From Bacteroidota bacterium (GTDB lineage: Bacteria; Bacteroidota; Ignavibacteria; UBA10030; UBA8401), in the NCBI GenBank assembly GCA_030679145.1, contig JAUXTU010000055.1, positions 1 to 64,000 of the forward strand: 64,000 bases of DNA, read 5' to 3'. Positions 16,019 through 24,821 of this stretch are shown here, one piece after another. The first letter of the stretch is position 1. Every line of letters begins with the position of its first letter. A model generated the notes under the pieces. The model saw only the letters and a program-made list of their open reading frames with translations. It made no database searches and was not told where the DNA came from. Both the position numbers and the translations under genes were made by a program.

Positions 16019-17683
16019 ATGAATATAAACAACTCTAAAAAAATTTTGATTATTGGCGGAGTTGCCGGCGGTGCTACTGCTGCTGCTCGCATTCGCAGAT
16101 TAGATGAATCTGCAGAAATCACTGTTCTTGAAAAGGGACCATATGTTAGTTTTGCTAATTGTGGGCTTCCATATTTCATCAGCAGAGATATTCAACGACG
16201 CTCAAATTTATTACTGCAAACCCCGGAAGGATTTTTTAGTCGGTATCGCGTTAATGTTCGTGTAAATACTGAAGCAATTCAAATTCTGCGGGAAGAAAAA
16301 ATTGTGGTTGTGTGGACTAAGAATGGTGAAGAAAAAATCCAATATGATAAATTGATTTTAGCGCAGGGTGGCTCTCCAATAGTCCCGCAACTTCCAGGAA
16401 TTACACAAGAGCATGTTTTTAAGCTGTGGACAATTCCTGACATGGATCGAATTCACAAATTTATTGAAGAAAAGAAACCGGTCAAAGCAATTGTTGCCGG
16501 TGGTGGTTTTATCGGTCTTGAAATGGCAGAAGCTTTTCATGCGCGAGGAATGAACGTAACTGTTGTGGAATTAGCTTCGCAAGTGATGATTACAATGGAT
16601 AGTGAATTTGGAGAAATGATAAAGAACGGGCTGGAAGAAAAAGGAATCTCCGTAAAGACGAAGACCGGTCTTTCAGCAATTGGTGAAAAGAATATCACAC
16701 TTTCTGACGGCACCACAATTGATGCTGATTTAGTATTGCTTTCCGTTGGTGTTCGTCCCGAATTGTTATTGGCCAAAACTGCCGGACTGACGATTGGCGA
16801 AAGCGGCGGATTGGTAGTGAATGAATATATGCAGACAAACGATCCGGATATTTTTGCAGCCGGAGATATGGTTGAAATCGTCAATAAAGTTCATGGAAGG
16901 AAAGTAAGAATTCCGTTAGCTGGACCCGCGAACAGACAAGGAAGAATTGCCGGAACAAATGTGCTGGGCGGGAAAATGAAATATAATGGGGCACTCGGCA
17001 CATCGGTGGTAAAATTATTTGATCGAACTGCTGCGTCAACCGGGCTTTCAGAAAAAACTGCTCGTGATGCAGGACTTGCTGTCGGAGTTGCGTATGTTTT
17101 CAAAGACAATCACGTAACATATTTCCCAGGTGGAAAACCTCTTGCAATGAAGATTGTGTATGATGTAACGACGAAATTACTACTTGGTGGTCAAGCATAT
17201 GGAGAAGTCGGCGTTGAAAAACGAATCGATGTTTTAGCAACTGCGCTTCATGGCAAAATGACTATGGAAGATCTCTCAGAATTGGATCTATCATATGCTC
17301 CGCCATACAACAGCGCGAACGATCCAGTTAACATTGCATCATTTGTTGGACTTAATCATATTTCTGGTTATAGTTCATTAAAAACTCCGCGTGAAACAAC
17401 AATAGAGCTTTCCAAAGAAAAAGGAATGATCCTTGATGTTCGAACAATGGGAGAACAATCAAAAGCGCGTTTAAATGATGTATTGCATATTCCGGCAGAC
17501 GAAGTTCGTGATAGATTATCGGAGATTCCCAAGGGAAAAAATATTTATCTTTTAAGTAAAGATGGTTTTTTAGGCCATACAACCCTTCAAATTCTTAAAG
17601 CGGAAGGATGGAAGAATGTGTATAATATTGCCGGTGGTTATTACGCAGCAAAATGGTTTGAAGGATGGAAATTTTCACATTAA
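16019..17683 (+). CDS. CoA-disulfide reductase-type flavoprotein with C-terminal rhodanese domain
   Basis: This is a 554-residue pyridine-nucleotide disulfide oxidoreductase of the single-cysteine type. The FAD motif is IIGGVAGGATAAARI, the redox Cys48 is in SFANCGLPY, the NAD(P)H motif is AIVAGGGFIGLEMAE, and the second FAD motif is IFAAGDMVEI. The C-terminal about 95 residues are a rhodanese domain (GMILDVRTMGEQSKARLND ... NIAGGYYAAKWF). Its active loop reads LLSKDGFLGH, so the catalytic Cys is replaced and the domain is probably inactive. Related CoADR-rhodanese fusions reduce CoA disulfide/persulfide or polysulfide. An active stand-alone rhodanese follows 27 bp downstream and may supply the missing activity. 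Confidence 0.88.
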   Translation: MNINNSKKILIIGGVAGGATAAARIRRLDESAEITVLEKGPYVSFANCGLPYFISRDIQRRSNLLLQTPEGFFSRYRVNVRVNTEAIQILREEKIVVVWTKNGEEKIQYDKLILAQGGSPIVPQLPGITQEHVFKLWTIPDMDRIHKFIEEKKPVKAIVAGGGFIGLEMAEAFHARGMNVTVVELASQVMITMDSEFGEMIKNGLEEKGISVKTKTGLSAIGEKNITLSDGTTIDADLVLLSVGVRPELLLAKTAGLTIGESGGLVVNEYMQTNDPDIFAAGDMVEIVNKVHGRKVRIPLAGPANRQGRIAGTNVLGGKMKYNGALGTSVVKLFDRTAASTGLSEKTARDAGLAVGVAYVFKDNHVTYFPGGKPLAMKIVYDVTTKLLLGGQAYGEVGVEKRIDVLATALHGKMTMEDLSELDLSYAPPYNSANDPVNIASFVGLNHISGYSSLKTPRETTIELSKEKGMILDVRTMGEQSKARLNDVLHIPADEVRDRLSEIPKGKNIYLLSKDGFLGHTTLQILKAEGWKNVYNIAGGYYAAKWFEGWKFSH

Positions 17684-17710: not shown

Positions 17711-17983
17711 ATGTCTGAGTTACTGAACAAGATCAAATCCGGTGCAAAAATTATCGATGTAAGAACTTCAGAAGAATTTGGCGAAGAACATTATCCGAAT
17801 GCGGTAAATATTCCCGTGGATGCACTACAGTTTAAACTAAATGATGTTGGAGAAAAGAATTCATCGGTTGTTCTCTATTGTGCTTCCGGTGCACGGAGCG
17901 CTTATGCAGCAAGAGTTTTAAAAAACTTAGGCTATACTGATGTTATTAATGCCGGTGGACTCTATGATATGCCGGAAATGTAA
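17711..17983 (+). CDS. single-domain rhodanese (sulfurtransferase)
   Basis: This 90-residue one-domain rhodanese has the active loop YCASGARSAYAA with an intact catalytic Cys, plus the family DVRTSEEFGEEHYPNAVNIP start. Such proteins carry persulfide sulfur between donors and acceptors. It has a good ribosome site (AAAAGGAGAAACAG) and follows the CoADR gene closely, consistent with one sulfane-sulfur handling unit. Confidence 0.92.
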   Translation: MSELLNKIKSGAKIIDVRTSEEFGEEHYPNAVNIPVDALQFKLNDVGEKNSSVVLYCASGARSAYAARVLKNLGYTDVINAGGLYDMPEM

Positions 17984-18018: not shown

Positions 18019-18507
18019 ATGAAAAAAATATTTTTGGTTTTACTGTTGATAATCGGTTATTCAACTGGTCTTTCTGCAAAAGATCTACAGTGGAAAAAAT
18101 TTAACGAAGGAATCATTGAAGCAAAAAAGAGCGGAAAAAAAATATTGGTGGATGTTTACACCGATTGGTGTAAATGGTGTAAGGAAATGGATAAAAAGAC
18201 ATATGCCGATAAAATGATCTCCACTTATTTGAAGAAGAATTATGTAATTATCAAATTAAACGCAGAAGGAAATGAAAGACTTAATTATCAAGGACAAACA
18301 ATTAGTCCGCGGGAGTTTGCACAAGGAATGGGTGTTGACGGATATCCTGCAACCGTGTTTCTGCAAAGCGATGGAAAGCCAATAACGTTGCTTCCCGGAT
18401 ATTCAACGCCTGATCAATTCATTCATGTTCTTAGCTTTATCGGCGAGAATCATTATTTGAAGAAAAAATTCCCAGATTACTTAGCGGAAAAAGGTGTAAA
18501 ACAGTAA
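18019..18507 (+). CDS. periplasmic thioredoxin-like protein (Thioredoxin_7/SoxW-like)
   Basis: The product has signal peptide MKKIFLVLLLIIGYSTGLSA and a thioredoxin fold with a WCKWC active site in VDVYTDWCKWCKEMDKKTY. The conserved cis-Pro is in VDGYPATVFL. The long insertion between these elements is typical of the DUF255/thioredoxin_7 group. It probably reduces periplasmic disulfides or accepts persulfide. Neighbouring rhodanese and CoADR genes suggest a sulfur context, though the electron donor is not evident here. Confidence 0.88.
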   Translation: MKKIFLVLLLIIGYSTGLSAKDLQWKKFNEGIIEAKKSGKKILVDVYTDWCKWCKEMDKKTYADKMISTYLKKNYVIIKLNAEGNERLNYQGQTISPREFAQGMGVDGYPATVFLQSDGKPITLLPGYSTPDQFIHVLSFIGENHYLKKKFPDYLAEKGVKQ

Positions 18508-18838: not shown

Positions 18839-20206
18839 ATGAATATGAATAATTTATCCATTCTTATTGTTGATGATGAAGCATCCCAGAGGGAGATTTT
18901 AGCCGGATATTTAAAAAAGAAACGACACACCGTTCACCAATCATCTTCTGTTCAAGAAGCACTTCAGCTAATCCAGTCTCAACACATTGATCTTGTTCTC
19001 ACCGATTATAAAATGCCGGGCAAAACCGGTTTTGATCTTTTGCAAGAGATTAAAAAGATTGATACTGAAGTTGTTGTGGTATTAATGACTGCGTTTGGCA
19101 CGATTGAGGGTGCGGTAGATGCAATGCGTGCCGGTGCATATGATTATCTCAGCAAGCCGATCGAATTGGATGAAATTGATCTGCTCATAAAACGGCTGCA
19201 GGAACGGCAGCAGTTAATTTCGGAAAACAAGTTGCTTCGGGAGCAGCTTGTTGAAAAATACTCCTTTTTGGAGATAATTTCTCAATCTGCTCAAATGCAG
19301 GAAGTGCTTTCTACTGTTTCACGCGTAGCACAAACCAAAGCCCCGGTTCTTATACGAGGTGAAAGCGGGACAGGAAAAGAATTGATCGCGCGGGCGATCC
19401 ATTTCAATAGTACGCGAAACAGAAAACCATTTATCGCGATAAATTGCGCCGCGCTCAATGACAATTTATTGGAAAGCGAATTGTTTGGTCATGAAAGGGG
19501 AGCATTCACCGGTGCGGAAAAACAACGACGAGGAAGATTTGAACTTGCTGACGGAGGAACAATATTTCTTGATGAAATAGGAGATATTTCCTCCGCGACT
19601 CAGGTAAGATTATTGCGCGTATTGCAAGAACAAAAATTTGAACGTGTTGGCGGTTCTGAAACGTTATCGGTTGATGTTCGGGTAATTGCAGCAACACACA
19701 AAAATCTAGAAGAAGCGATTGTGAATGGAAAATTCCGCGAAGACCTATTCTATCGATTGAATGTGGTTGCAGTAGAAATTCCGCCGCTTCGAAAGCGAAG
19801 AGAGGATATCGCTGTTTTATTGGATCATTTTCTCTCGGCGTTTGCGAAAGAACATAAAAAAAAGAAATTGAATTTCTCTAAGGAGGCGTGGGAACATCTT
19901 ACCAGATACGATTATCCGGGGAACGTCCGTGAGTTAGAAAATATTGTTCAACGTTCCGTTATTTTTTCACGGGGAGATACGATTACATCTGAAGATCTTC
20001 CGCAAATTGTAAAAACAAACAAGAGCGAATCTACTTCTGCCAAACAAGACTTAGAGAATTTTTCTGAACAGATTGAACGATTGGAGAAAGATCTCATCTT
20101 TGAAGCCCTTCGAATACATGGCAATAATCAGTCAAAAGCAGCGGAACAGCTTGGACTATCCGAGAGAAACTTACGCTATCGGCTCAAAAAGTGGCGTGTG
20201 AAATAA
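18839..20206 (+). CDS. NtrC-family sigma54-dependent response regulator
   Basis: This 455-residue enhancer-binding protein has a receiver (1-120, phospho-acceptor Asp56 in [10 protein letters not shown]), an AAA+ domain (Walker [16 protein letters not shown]) and a C-terminal Fis-type HTH ([24 protein letters not shown]). The AAA+ domain contains the sigma54-contacting GAFTGAE loop. It therefore activates sigma54 promoters. The nearest good one is at 21673, with tandem dyads upstream. No kinase is adjacent. The NtrB-like kinase at 30485 is the most likely partner in the window, which is inference. A terminator overlaps the end of the gene, so the following genes are separate units. Confidence 0.95.
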
Positions 20207-21754: not shown

Positions 21755-22111
21755 ATGAAACGCATCATCAACGCAGCATTCACACTTGCAGTCGTATTCG
21801 CTCTCGGCTTCTTGTTCACAGATTCAGCATTTGCACAGCAAAAAGGAACCGGCACACCAAAGGGTAACGGTCAATATTTTGTTGATCAAGATGGCGACGG
21901 AATCTGTGATAATGTCGGTACGCATCAAGGACAGAAGATGGGAAATGCAGCAAAAGGAAAAGGTAACGGTCCGAAAGATGGAACAGGATATAAAGGTAAC
22001 GGACCAAAAGATGGCACAGGCAATGGTAGCGGTACGTGCACTGGCACTGGAACAGGTGTTTGCGATGGAACAGGTTCAAAAGGAAGCATGAATCGCGGCG
22101 GTAGAAAATAA
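21755..22111 (+). CDS. small secreted Gly-rich protein with one EF-hand-like Ca loop
   Basis: The 118-residue product has signal peptide ending DSAFA, then FVDQDGDGICDN, an Asp-rich calcium-loop motif of the dockerin/thrombospondin-3 kind. A low-complexity tail follows, built of KGNGPKDGTG repeats and a CTGTGTGVCDGTG stretch. The tail repeats are also visible at DNA level (two near-identical 30-bp units around 21960-22020). It has a strong ribosome site (ACAGGAGGTTTT). It is the first gene behind the sigma54 promoter. A paralogue with two such loops lies at 23389. It is probably a small abundant envelope or extracellular metal-binding protein; its true function is unknown. Confidence 0.8.
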   Translation: MKRIINAAFTLAVVFALGFLFTDSAFAQQKGTGTPKGNGQYFVDQDGDGICDNVGTHQGQKMGNAAKGKGNGPKDGTGYKGNGPKDGTGNGSGTCTGTGTGVCDGTGSKGSMNRGGRK

Positions 22112-22122
22112 AAGCAGTATTG

Positions 22123-22150
22123 TGTGTGGAGAGTGTGAACTCTCCATACA
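22123..22150 (+). other. intercistronic hairpin 1 of the sigma54 operon
   Basis: TGTGTGGAGAGT pairs with ACTCTCCATACA (one G-U) around a GTGA loop. No T tract follows, so it is more likely an mRNA processing or stability element than a terminator. The same hairpin type recurs at 22902. Confidence 0.7.
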
Positions 22151-22196
22151 CGCAAACTACTAAACCAAATAAAACACACAAGGAAAGGATACAACA

Positions 22197-22889
22197 ATGA
22201 AAACATTCTCCATTTCACTTATACTCACTTTGGCAATAATGATCTCAGCAATAGGATGTGACAAAACAGACGCAGGACCAACTGGAAATGAACTATCGGG
22301 GCAGTATCAAAATACTTTCGAACAAGATGCTGCTTTGATGGTGGCTTCTTTGGATGGAATTGCATCAGACTCTTTATCAGTTGAAGAGGGGAATGGTTTG
22401 CTCTATATGCGAGAAGAAGAAAAACTTGCGCGCGATGTTTATTCTGAATTGTATGTAAAATGGAATCTGCGCCCATTCTCAAATATTTCTCGAAGCGAAC
22501 AAATGCACATGAATGCAATTCTATCATTGGTGAATAGATATTCATTGCAAGATCCTGTTGATGTAAATGGCGCGGGAGTATTTAAAGATGAAATATTACA
22601 AAATCTATATAATACTCTTATAGTAGAGGGGAACAAGAGTGTTGTAGATGCATTAGAAGTTGGAGCAACAATTGAAGAAGTTGATATTGTTGATCTTCAA
22701 AAACATTTAAAAGAAACGGATAATGAAGATATTACATTTGTATATGATAATCTTATGCGCGGATCGAGAAATCATTTGCGGGCTTTTGTGAAGAATTTAA
22801 AAGCACAGGGTGTAACGTATGTTCCACAATATTTAACGGCGGCAGAGTATGAGCAAATCATTTCCACACCGATGGAGCGCGGTAGATAA
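22197..22889 (+). CDS. DUF2202 ferritin-like lipoprotein/secreted protein
   Basis: The product has an N-terminal signal with IGCDK, a possible lipobox Cys. From about residue 60 it carries the DUF2202 domain: LYMREEEKLARDVYSELY, SRSEQMHMNAILSLVNRY, GATIEEVDIVDLQKHL and MRGSRNHLRAFVKNL. The E-E and H residues at regular helical spacing fit a four-helix ferritin-like bundle able to hold a di-metal centre. Family function is unknown. In this operon it sits between small Ca-loop proteins and a double DUF1858 protein, which suggests metal or redox handling in the envelope. The ribosome site AAGGAAAGGATACAACA is good. Confidence 0.88.
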   Translation: MKTFSISLILTLAIMISAIGCDKTDAGPTGNELSGQYQNTFEQDAALMVASLDGIASDSLSVEEGNGLLYMREEEKLARDVYSELYVKWNLRPFSNISRSEQMHMNAILSLVNRYSLQDPVDVNGAGVFKDEILQNLYNTLIVEGNKSVVDALEVGATIEEVDIVDLQKHLKETDNEDITFVYDNLMRGSRNHLRAFVKNLKAQGVTYVPQYLTAAEYEQIISTPMERGR

Positions 22890-22901: not shown

Positions 22902-22933
22902 TGTATGTGGAGGGTGTGAACCCTCCACATACA
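22902..22933 (+). other. intercistronic hairpin 2 of the sigma54 operon
   Basis: A perfect 14-bp stem (TGTATGTGGAGGGT / ACCCTCCACATACA) with loop GTGA. It is the same design, loop and flanking wording (AGTATTGT...) as the hairpin at 22123, so the two are duplicated elements. Confidence 0.75.
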
Positions 22934-22993
22934 CAAATCAACAAACAGAAGTATTGTAAATATTCAGCGTTTATACAACACATGGAGAGATTT

Positions 22994-23392
22994 ATGATAG
23001 ACAGAAACATTGCTCCCGAAGACCTGGTGCTTGAAGTTCCCGACTCAATTGGATATTTGAATCGAAAAGGAATAACCTGTGTGGTATGTGGAGAACCGAT
23101 GGTAGGAACATTAGAATCAGTTTCGAAAGAAAAAGGATATTCTATTCAGGATATTGAAAATATTGTAACAGAATTAATAGAACTCAAGCGAGCCGGAATA
23201 AATACTGATATAACCGTTGAAGAACTTGTACATCAGGTTCCTGAATCAATCGAATATTTGAATCGTAAAGGAATAACCTGTTTGACGTGTGGAGAACCAA
23301 TAACCAATACGCTCGAAACTCTTCTAAAAGGGCTGGGATATTCAGATCGAGATATTGAAAGTATTGTAACAGAATTAAAGGGACTTGCATGA
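22994..23392 (+). CDS. tandem double DUF1858 protein
   Basis: This soluble 132-residue protein is two copies of the DUF1858 domain: residues about 1-62 (LEVPDSIGYLNRKGITCVVCGEP) and 70-132 (HQVPESIEYLNRKGITCLTCGEP). Each carries a CxxCGEP motif. Single DUF1858 domains occur at the N-terminus of the iron-sulfur repair protein ScdA/RIC and next to hybrid-cluster-type proteins, so a thiol/redox or Fe-S role is plausible. ATG 22994 follows GGAGAG at good spacing; ATG 22982 is the alternative. There is no signal peptide, so it is the cytoplasmic member of an otherwise envelope-directed operon. Its stop overlaps the next start (ATGA). Confidence 0.82.
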   Translation: MIDRNIAPEDLVLEVPDSIGYLNRKGITCVVCGEPMVGTLESVSKEKGYSIQDIENIVTELIELKRAGINTDITVEELVHQVPESIEYLNRKGITCLTCGEPITNTLETLLKGLGYSDRDIESIVTELKGLA

Positions 23393-23691
23393 AAACTATC
23401 TCAATCATATTAATATCTCTCATTATCGTAGTAAGTGGTTCAATTGCCCAAACGACGGACAGCATTTCTTCGCGACAGAAAAATAAACAAGAAAGAAATA
23501 AATTTGTTGATCAGAACGGCGATGGTATTCAAGATTCACCTCAGGTAAATAAAATACGACAACGCGATGTATTTATTGATGCAAACGGAGACGGTATTTG
23601 CGATAACCGTGAACAAGGTCTCGGTTTTCGACGCGGCAAAGGACAATCAACCAATCAAACAGGAAAACGCCAACAAGGAAGGCAAAAATGA
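23389..23691 (+). CDS. small secreted protein with two EF-hand-like Ca loops
   Basis: The 100-residue product has signal peptide MKTISIILISLIIVVSGSIAQ. Two loops follow, FVDQNGDGIQD and FIDANGDGICDN, then a basic Gln/Arg/Gly tail. It is a paralogue of the product at 21755, sharing the FVDQ-GDGI-D core and loop spacing. ATGA overlaps at both ends show it is translated as part of the operon. Confidence 0.8.
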   Translation: MKTISIILISLIIVVSGSIAQTTDSISSRQKNKQERNKFVDQNGDGIQDSPQVNKIRQRDVFIDANGDGICDNREQGLGFRRGKGQSTNQTGKRQQGRQK

Positions 23692-24821
23692 AAACAATCA
23701 AATCAATTCTCGCTGTAGCAATTATTATGTTGTTCGTATTCGGACAATCTCTTTCTGCTCAATTCAATATTCGTCCAACAATAAGTTCAATGGCTGATGA
23801 CAATGTGAATAATAATGCGTTTCAAATAAAAAGCAATGTTACCACATTCAATCTTAACAGCGGATACTCATGGGATAATGAAAGTAATTTCACGAGTTTA
23901 TATTACGATGGAACGTTTACCTATTTTGAATCCTTCCTGCAGCGGACTAATCATTTTCATTCAATCAATACTGAATACACACAATTGTATGGAAGCGAGA
24001 ATCAAAATGCTCTAAACGTAGGCGGATTACTCGGAACAAGTATCAACCGAGATGATTATGTGATCTTCAATCATTCACAGCTATCCGGATTCATCAACTA
24101 TAAATATTTTGCTGCGGATTGGTTAATCAATAAGTTTGGTTATTCATTCAGATCGGTTGGATTTGTCTCACTGAATGATTTTAGTTTTACAGAACATTCA
24201 ATATTTGCTCACGCGGCATTTGCTGCGACATCAACAACAACTGCAATAGTGCAAGCCGATCTTGGGACAAAATTTTATTCCACTACTCCGTCGGGCTCCA
24301 GTTCATCAATGAGAAAAGGTGTCATGTCTTCACTGCTGCCGAGTGTTACACAATTAACAGGAATGATAAAACTTGGTCAGCGTATCACGGATGAATTAGG
24401 CGTGAGCATTACGGAACGGTATCAATGGAACATTCAAAAACAGACACGGTATCTCAGTTCGGATTATGGATTTATTTCGGATGATGAATTATTTGATGAC
24501 CATTACGGATATGAAGGATTTCATACGAATGCCACAATAACATCGCTTCTCTCGGAAACAATAATGTTAAAATTATCCGGCGGATTGCAGAATAAACTAT
24601 ATTCGTCACTGTCAGCTTACGATTGGGATGGAAATGTAGTTGCTGATCAACGAATTGATGCTCGAACATATTTCAATATTGGATTGCGAAAAAATTTTGA
24701 AGATCTCGGATTTTCTCTTAAGGGTGCAGTTGATGTTATTCAAAACTCTTCAAACGATTCATTTTACAGCTACAAAAATAACGCTTTCACATTAGAAATA
24801 AGTGTTCCGTTTTCTAATTGA
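23688..24821 (+). CDS. outer-membrane beta-barrel protein of the sigma54 operon
   Basis: This 377-residue protein has signal peptide MKTIKSILAVAIIMLFVFGQSLSAQ, then many amphipathic strands rich in Tyr/Phe/Ser/Asn, ending FTLEISVPFSN. No known porin family was recognised. Its start overlaps the stop of the second Ca-loop protein. It is the natural surface partner of the small secreted proteins or of the ABC transporter that follows after a 165-bp gap, in which I see no clear promoter or terminator. Confidence 0.7.
   Translation: MKTIKSILAVAIIMLFVFGQSLSAQFNIRPTISSMADDNVNNNAFQIKSNVTTFNLNSGYSWDNESNFTSLYYDGTFTYFESFLQRTNHFHSINTEYTQLYGSENQNALNVGGLLGTSINRDDYVIFNHSQLSGFINYKYFAADWLINKFGYSFRSVGFVSLNDFSFTEHSIFAHAAFAATSTTTAIVQADLGTKFYSTTPSGSSSSMRKGVMSSLLPSVTQLTGMIKLGQRITDELGVSITERYQWNIQKQTRYLSSDYGFISDDELFDDHYGYEGFHTNATITSLLSETIMLKLSGGLQNKLYSSLSAYDWDGNVVADQRIDARTYFNIGLRKNFEDLGFSLKGAVDVIQNSSNDSFYSYKNNAFTLEISVPFSN

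Follow-up and report, generated by a model that had tools for sequence, protein, structure and literature searches.

Described relatives of the tandem protein

The closest described relatives of the protein analyzed here, which is encoded in a 64,000-nt stretch of DNA (the window) from a Bacteroidota bacterium, are the single-domain proteins of the DUF1858 (PF08984)/TIGR03980 family (2k53, 2k5e). To our knowledge, no biochemical function has been established for DUF1858. The tandem protein resembles these proteins in its fold, the presence of CxxC and its stand-alone status, and differs from them in having two copies per chain, a CGEP-type motif, and scores below the curated cut-offs. The association in the NCBIfam name of TIGR03980, "hybrid cluster protein-associated redox disulfide domain", has no counterpart here, as the genome harboring the window has no match to the hybrid cluster protein model (PF03063).

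ScdA_N (PF04405), the N-terminal domain of the RIC proteins YtfE and ScdA, has the same fold (Z 8-9, about 60 residues). YtfE combines vicinal Cys30-Cys31 with a fused hemerythrin-like di-iron domain, whereas the tandem protein has CxxC and lacks such a domain, being composed entirely of two DUF1858-like repeats. DUF1858 is also present in DrpB from Thermus thermophilus, described in PMC6282519 as a cytosolic, membrane-interacting protein with a role in the control of nitrate respiration; there, one DUF1858 is fused to two DUF2249 domains, while the tandem protein has two DUF1858-like domains only. The portions of the DUF1858 literature considered here do not describe a tandem DUF1858 protein.

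The tandem gene and its two repeats

The frame at 22994..23392 of the plus strand (also the strand of all other window coordinates written with two dots) encodes 132 amino acids with one CxxCGEP per domain, which confirms the tandem DUF1858 gene of the preliminary description. The start at 22994 is favored over an alternative in-frame ATG four codons upstream (22982) because of the probable ribosome-binding site GGAGAG at 22984..22989 and the starts of the relatives. No signal peptide was seen by eye in the 132-aa protein.

As had been proposed, the protein consists of two domains and nothing else: repeat 1 fills codons 1-67 (22994..23194) and the more diverged repeat 2 fills codons 68-132 (23195..23389), both having the YtfE N-domain/DUF1858 fold according to AF2 models and fold search. 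The cysteine motifs are CVVC (residues 29-32, 23078..23089) and CLTC (residues 96-99, 23279..23290), each directly followed by GEP. The motif PxSIxYLNRKGITCxxCGEP occurs twice, with 16 of its 20 positions identical between the copies, so the earlier term "near-identical" suits the motif but not the full repeats, identical in 38 of 65 aligned residues (58%). In 2000 shuffles this identity was 5 residues on average and 13 at most. At the DNA level, the repeat has a period of 201 nt, and its copies are 81-82% identical over two aligned stretches. The divergence of the repeats (dN 0.30, dS 1.07, overall dN/dS about 0.28) points to an old duplication under average constraint, which makes an assembly artefact unlikely.

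Family assignment

The tandem protein scored 27.4 bits with PF08984 (curated cut-off 32.2) and 35.1 bits, in two stretches, with TIGR03980 (curated cut-off 44.95). Since both scores are below the cut-offs, it is a divergent relative of DUF1858/TIGR03980 rather than a curated member. The name DUF1858 is therefore correct, though weakly backed by the direct scores, and the relatives connect the protein to the family clearly. When each repeat and each of 78 relatives with a single domain were scanned singly (80 rows, E 0.01), TIGR03980 was matched by 79 rows and PF08984 by 78, repeat 1 alone matching neither model. The ScdA model was matched by eight of these 80 rows. Thus, the earlier statement that DUF1858 caps proteins such as ScdA holds as to relatedness (fold Z 8-9, the eight rows) but not as to the cap itself, which strictly is ScdA_N, a domain of the same fold from another Pfam family.

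A scan of the genome collection with the protein query alone found no relative, whereas an alignment-based scan did. The latter, a pattern-plus-tblastn scan of the collection (84,980 species), yielded 477 confirmed relatives. The best 80 of them were used further; these are labelled Bacteroidota, Ignavibacteriota, Chlorobiota, Calditrichota, KSB1, Zixibacteria, Latescibacterota, and others. Loci L081 and L104, being near-duplicates, were omitted from the neighbor count and the alignments, leaving 78. The CxxC motif is retained in 79 of the best 80, exactly one in each, and the remaining one has none, though the pattern used to pick these loci required CGEP and Trp, which biases conservation at those positions. 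In a separate alignment of 19 relatives chosen without regard to the motif, CxxC is retained in 18. In one relative (L118:5001-5207, genome G008), situated in an island of thioredoxin, DUF6132, OsmC and DUF302 genes, the first cysteine of CxxC is replaced by Ala (GINALACGEP).

Fold

In the AF2 model of the tandem protein, repeat 1 is predicted confidently (block pLDDT 78-97) and repeat 2 poorly, as repeat 1 attracted every one of the 78 single-domain rows in the alignment; modelled alone, repeat 2 reaches pLDDT 91.3. The placement of the two domains relative to each other is not confidently predicted (pTM 0.54). The fold search with repeat 1 yielded 2k53 and 2k5e (Z 8.8 each) and YtfE (Z 8.0-8.6, 5fnn 8.6), and with repeat 2, 2k5e (Z 9.1), YtfE (Z 9.0, 5fny) and 2k53 (Z 7.8), all remaining rows having Z of 6.0 or less. 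Hence each repeat presents its CxxC in the family fold (Z 7.8-9.1 to 2k53/2k5e), which is also of the ScdA_N type, and the matches to YtfE at Z 8-9 show that the domain and the cap at the N-terminus of RIC proteins have a common fold.

The profile search of structures gave 2k53 at E 0.003 and 2k5e at E 1; both were accepted as genuine relatives, since they come out on top in the fold search. The BURRH rows of the same search look like chance matches to repeat proteins, and a single-sequence search of solved structures returned designed helical repeats and other chains, judged unrelated.

Rarity and origin of the tandem form

The free-standing state of the domain, previously regarded as unusual, turned out to be the rule: in all 80 loci (best 80 of the 477 relatives) a single domain of 64-94 residues stands alone. 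A second in-frame CxxCG motif was found in none of them, and the rare feature is the duplication alone. Matches were found in 36 of 98 genomes of the order sample and in 46 of 395 genomes of the phylum sample; only the match in the window spans both halves in the former and covers residues 1-132 in the latter. One match spanning residues 29-130, in genome G121, is probably spurious (676-aa frame, E 1.8e-4) and remains among the 46. Searches of plasmid and viral contigs gave no match.

In a tree of 92 rows, the repeats group together as sisters (support 99/92), the branch of repeat 2 being longer (1.0 vs 0.74). They share Ile19/86, Asn23/90, Arg24/91, Thr28/95, Tyr49/116 and Thr59/126, each found in at most 8% of the relatives. 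Moreover, both have lost the Trp present in all 19 relatives aligned without motif selection; repeat 2 additionally lacks the near-invariant Gly and Lys. In two loci of the same genus (L041, L043), a single-domain homologue lies, as in the window, near genes for a DUF2202 protein, a protein of 373-377 aa and a sigma-54-type regulator, and a CoA-disulfide-reductase/rhodanese gene is common to the window and L043. Sister repeats and single-domain homologues in a shared neighborhood indicate a lineage-specific duplication within the gene, and the simplest reading is that a widespread single-headed protein was duplicated in place. The tandem protein is thus a new two-headed form of a widespread small protein, a real but modest finding; taken by itself, the duplication changes a common protein only modestly. 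Of greater interest is how strongly the DUF1858 family as a whole is associated with DUF302.

Genomic partners of the single-domain family

DUF302 is the strongest genomic partner of the DUF1858 family. Among 60 relatives, it is present in all 26 genomes with DUF1858 and in 13 of the 34 others. In a strict subset, without genomes of less than 90% completeness and without the G011 match (a 704-aa frame counted among the 26, which we take to be FlhA-like), the counts are 25 of 25 and 10 of 28. Kinship was handled by the genus-level count alone: DUF302 occurs in 20 of 20 genera with DUF1858 and in five of 18 without it. In the phylum sample, 43 of 46 DUF1858 genomes and 151 of 349 others have DUF302. 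The two genes are also physically close in seven of the 26 matches (within 1.6 kb), and these seven also have OsmC at a distance of at most 3 kb. A literature search found no single paper in which DUF302 and DUF1858 occur together.

Other candidates showed no such correlation among the relatives tested: the presence of OsmC (p 0.16) and of DUF2202 is not significantly associated with DUF1858, and the same is true for the hybrid cluster protein (4 of 60 relatives, p 1.0) and ScdA_N (20 of 60, a control of intermediate frequency, p 0.58). ScdA_N has no match in the genome of the window. PF00210, tried as a neutral control, was too common to inform (57 of 60 genomes).

The neighbor clusters in the 78 loci include, in raw counts, thioredoxin (16), DUF6132-like (11), glutaredoxin-like (6) and two OsmC-like ones (5 and 3). 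A tested partner family lies within three genes in only 19 of the 78 loci, the ECF sigma factors not being among the families counted. Wider neighborhoods were examined for 20 of the 26 DUF1858 matches. Several further genomes from the order have the single DUF1858 gene in a compact island, together with varying combinations of genes for an ECF sigma factor, an anti-sigma factor, thioredoxin, OsmC, DUF302, DUF6132, rhodanese and, presumably, an FmdB-type protein. These labels were read from sequence, and all except FmdB were checked with Pfam on the copies in a locus of the window's own genome, L151:7391-10888 (contig C18). There, a compact island that lacks DUF1858 and has all its genes in the same orientation comprises genes for an ECF sigma factor, a zf-HC2 anti-sigma factor, a YgaP-like membrane protein, thioredoxin, rhodanese, a DUF6132-like protein, OsmC and DUF302. 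In six of the 78 loci, a cluster of small Cys-containing proteins (represented by L030:5756-6004, with no Pfam or NCBIfam match) is found directly upstream of the single-domain DUF1858 gene.

Possible function of the two-headed protein

We propose, with a probability of about 0.55, that the tandem protein is a cytosolic two-headed thiol-relay protein based on CxxC; transfer of electrons or sulfur via the cysteines is the most likely function, ahead of the binding of one shared metal. Each head would use the DUF1858/YtfE N-domain fold to present one CxxC, which may cycle between dithiol and disulfide, possibly persulfide, forms. It would be recharged by a thioredoxin-type reductase, as the genomic context suggests, and each head would pass two electrons, or sulfane sulfur, to a partner. 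From the same context, a DUF302 protein is the leading candidate for the acceptor. With a stand-alone two-headed form, and with DUF302 accompanying the family almost without exception, this is a concrete, testable partner hypothesis.

The proposed relay is consistent with the fold matches of both repeats to 2k53/2k5e and to the YtfE N-domain with its disulfide-forming cysteine pair, the CxxU forms of DUF1858, the retention of CxxC in nearly all relatives and, under average purifying selection, in both repeats, the link of the single-headed family to DUF302 by co-occurrence as well as by proximity (a link that the hybrid cluster protein and ScdA_N lack), the thioredoxin and OsmC genes in the family neighborhoods, and the CoA-disulfide-reductase/rhodanese and rhodanese genes near the tandem gene. 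Arguing against it are the thioredoxin/OsmC/DUF302 island of the same genome, located on another contig and lacking DUF1858, the relative without the first cysteine (L118), the lack of a significant correlation with OsmC, and the low fraction of loci with a tested partner nearby (19 of 78). Moreover, the activity of ScdA does not strictly depend on its cysteines (PMC12412097), and DrpB (PMC6282519) links DUF1858 to nitrogen-oxide metabolism.

The same link is provided by a DUF1858 gene reported in the NnrR regulon of Bradyrhizobium. Together with the fold match to the YtfE N-domain and the name of TIGR03980, this could be explained by a role in nitrosative stress or Fe-S repair, the protein either corresponding to a RIC/ScdA cap that stands alone or acting together with the hybrid cluster protein. 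Given that matches to PF03063 and PF04405 are both absent from the genome, and that neither family is associated with DUF1858 across the 60 genomes, such a role is possible but not probable. As suggested in the preliminary description, the two CxxC pairs might instead share one metal center. On this reading, both motifs of one chain would together hold one Zn, Fe or Fe-S center, and single-headed relatives would do so as homodimers. Four cysteines are a sufficient ligand set, only a short linker separates the helices of repeat 1 from those of repeat 2 in the AF2 model, and zinc-ribbon-type models give weak matches, below their cut-offs, on CxxCGE. Still, relatives carry one CxxC per chain (79 of the best 80) or none (one), and L118 has Ala in place of a cysteine. 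In YtfE, the cysteine pair of the same fold forms a disulfide and delivers electrons to the di-iron centre, which lies in another domain (PMC9052748), and selenocysteine CxxU forms of DUF1858 are catalogued (PMC9312934 and PMC13188914). By analogy, these observations would favor redox chemistry over a structural metal, leaving the shared site a live but weaker rival of the thiol relay, and an unlikely one.

Repeat 2 could also be a decaying or merely structural duplicate, with repeat 1 alone being functional, as suggested by its longer branch and the loss of the near-invariant Trp, Gly and Lys. This is very unlikely, since CxxCGEP is kept in both copies, overall dN/dS is low (about 0.28), repeat 2 modelled alone is confidently predicted in the family fold, and the Trp has been lost from repeat 1 as well.

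The relay could be extended, in a rather doubtful generalization, to an uncharacterised thiol/sulfane-sulfur system of Bacteroidota-like bacteria, comprising CGEP-type DUF1858, DUF302, thioredoxin, OsmC, rhodanese, DUF6132 and the YgaP-like membrane protein. In such a system, the tandem protein might serve as an internal two-step relay, its heads specialised as donor and acceptor.

Neighborhood of the tandem gene

Upstream in the window are genes for a CoA-disulfide-reductase-like flavoprotein with a C-terminal rhodanese (16019..17683; TIGR03385, 457.6 bits, below the cut-off of 578.8), a single-domain rhodanese (17711..17983) and a secreted-looking thioredoxin-like protein with WCKWC (18019..18507). 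They are followed by a sigma-54 response regulator (18839..20206), whose blast-cluster mate lies near the single-domain homologues of the same genus, and by the gene directly upstream, for a DUF2202 protein with a lipoprotein-like N-terminus (22197..22889; PF09968, 209.9 bits). The number of sigma-54 -24/-12 sites in the window is at chance level (10 vs 8.1 expected).

The stop of the tandem gene overlaps, as ATGA, the gene for a secreted-looking protein of 100 aa with DxNGDGxxD motifs (23389..23691), which in turn has an ATGA overlap with a gene for a 377-aa protein (23688..24821) from cluster c22, conserved beside the same-genus single-domain homologues. Due to these overlaps, the three genes appear to form an operon.

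Two near-identical hairpins with 14-bp stems are located upstream of the DUF2202 gene (22122-22153) and of the tandem gene (22902-22935). Their fold z-scores are -4.97 and -4.59, and the pattern has two exact matches with none expected; apart from copies of the window, it is absent from the other loci examined. Secreted-looking small proteins (21755-22111 and 23389-23691) flank the DUF2202 and tandem genes, and the motif F-V/I-D-x-N/D-G-D-G-I-x-D is common to both.
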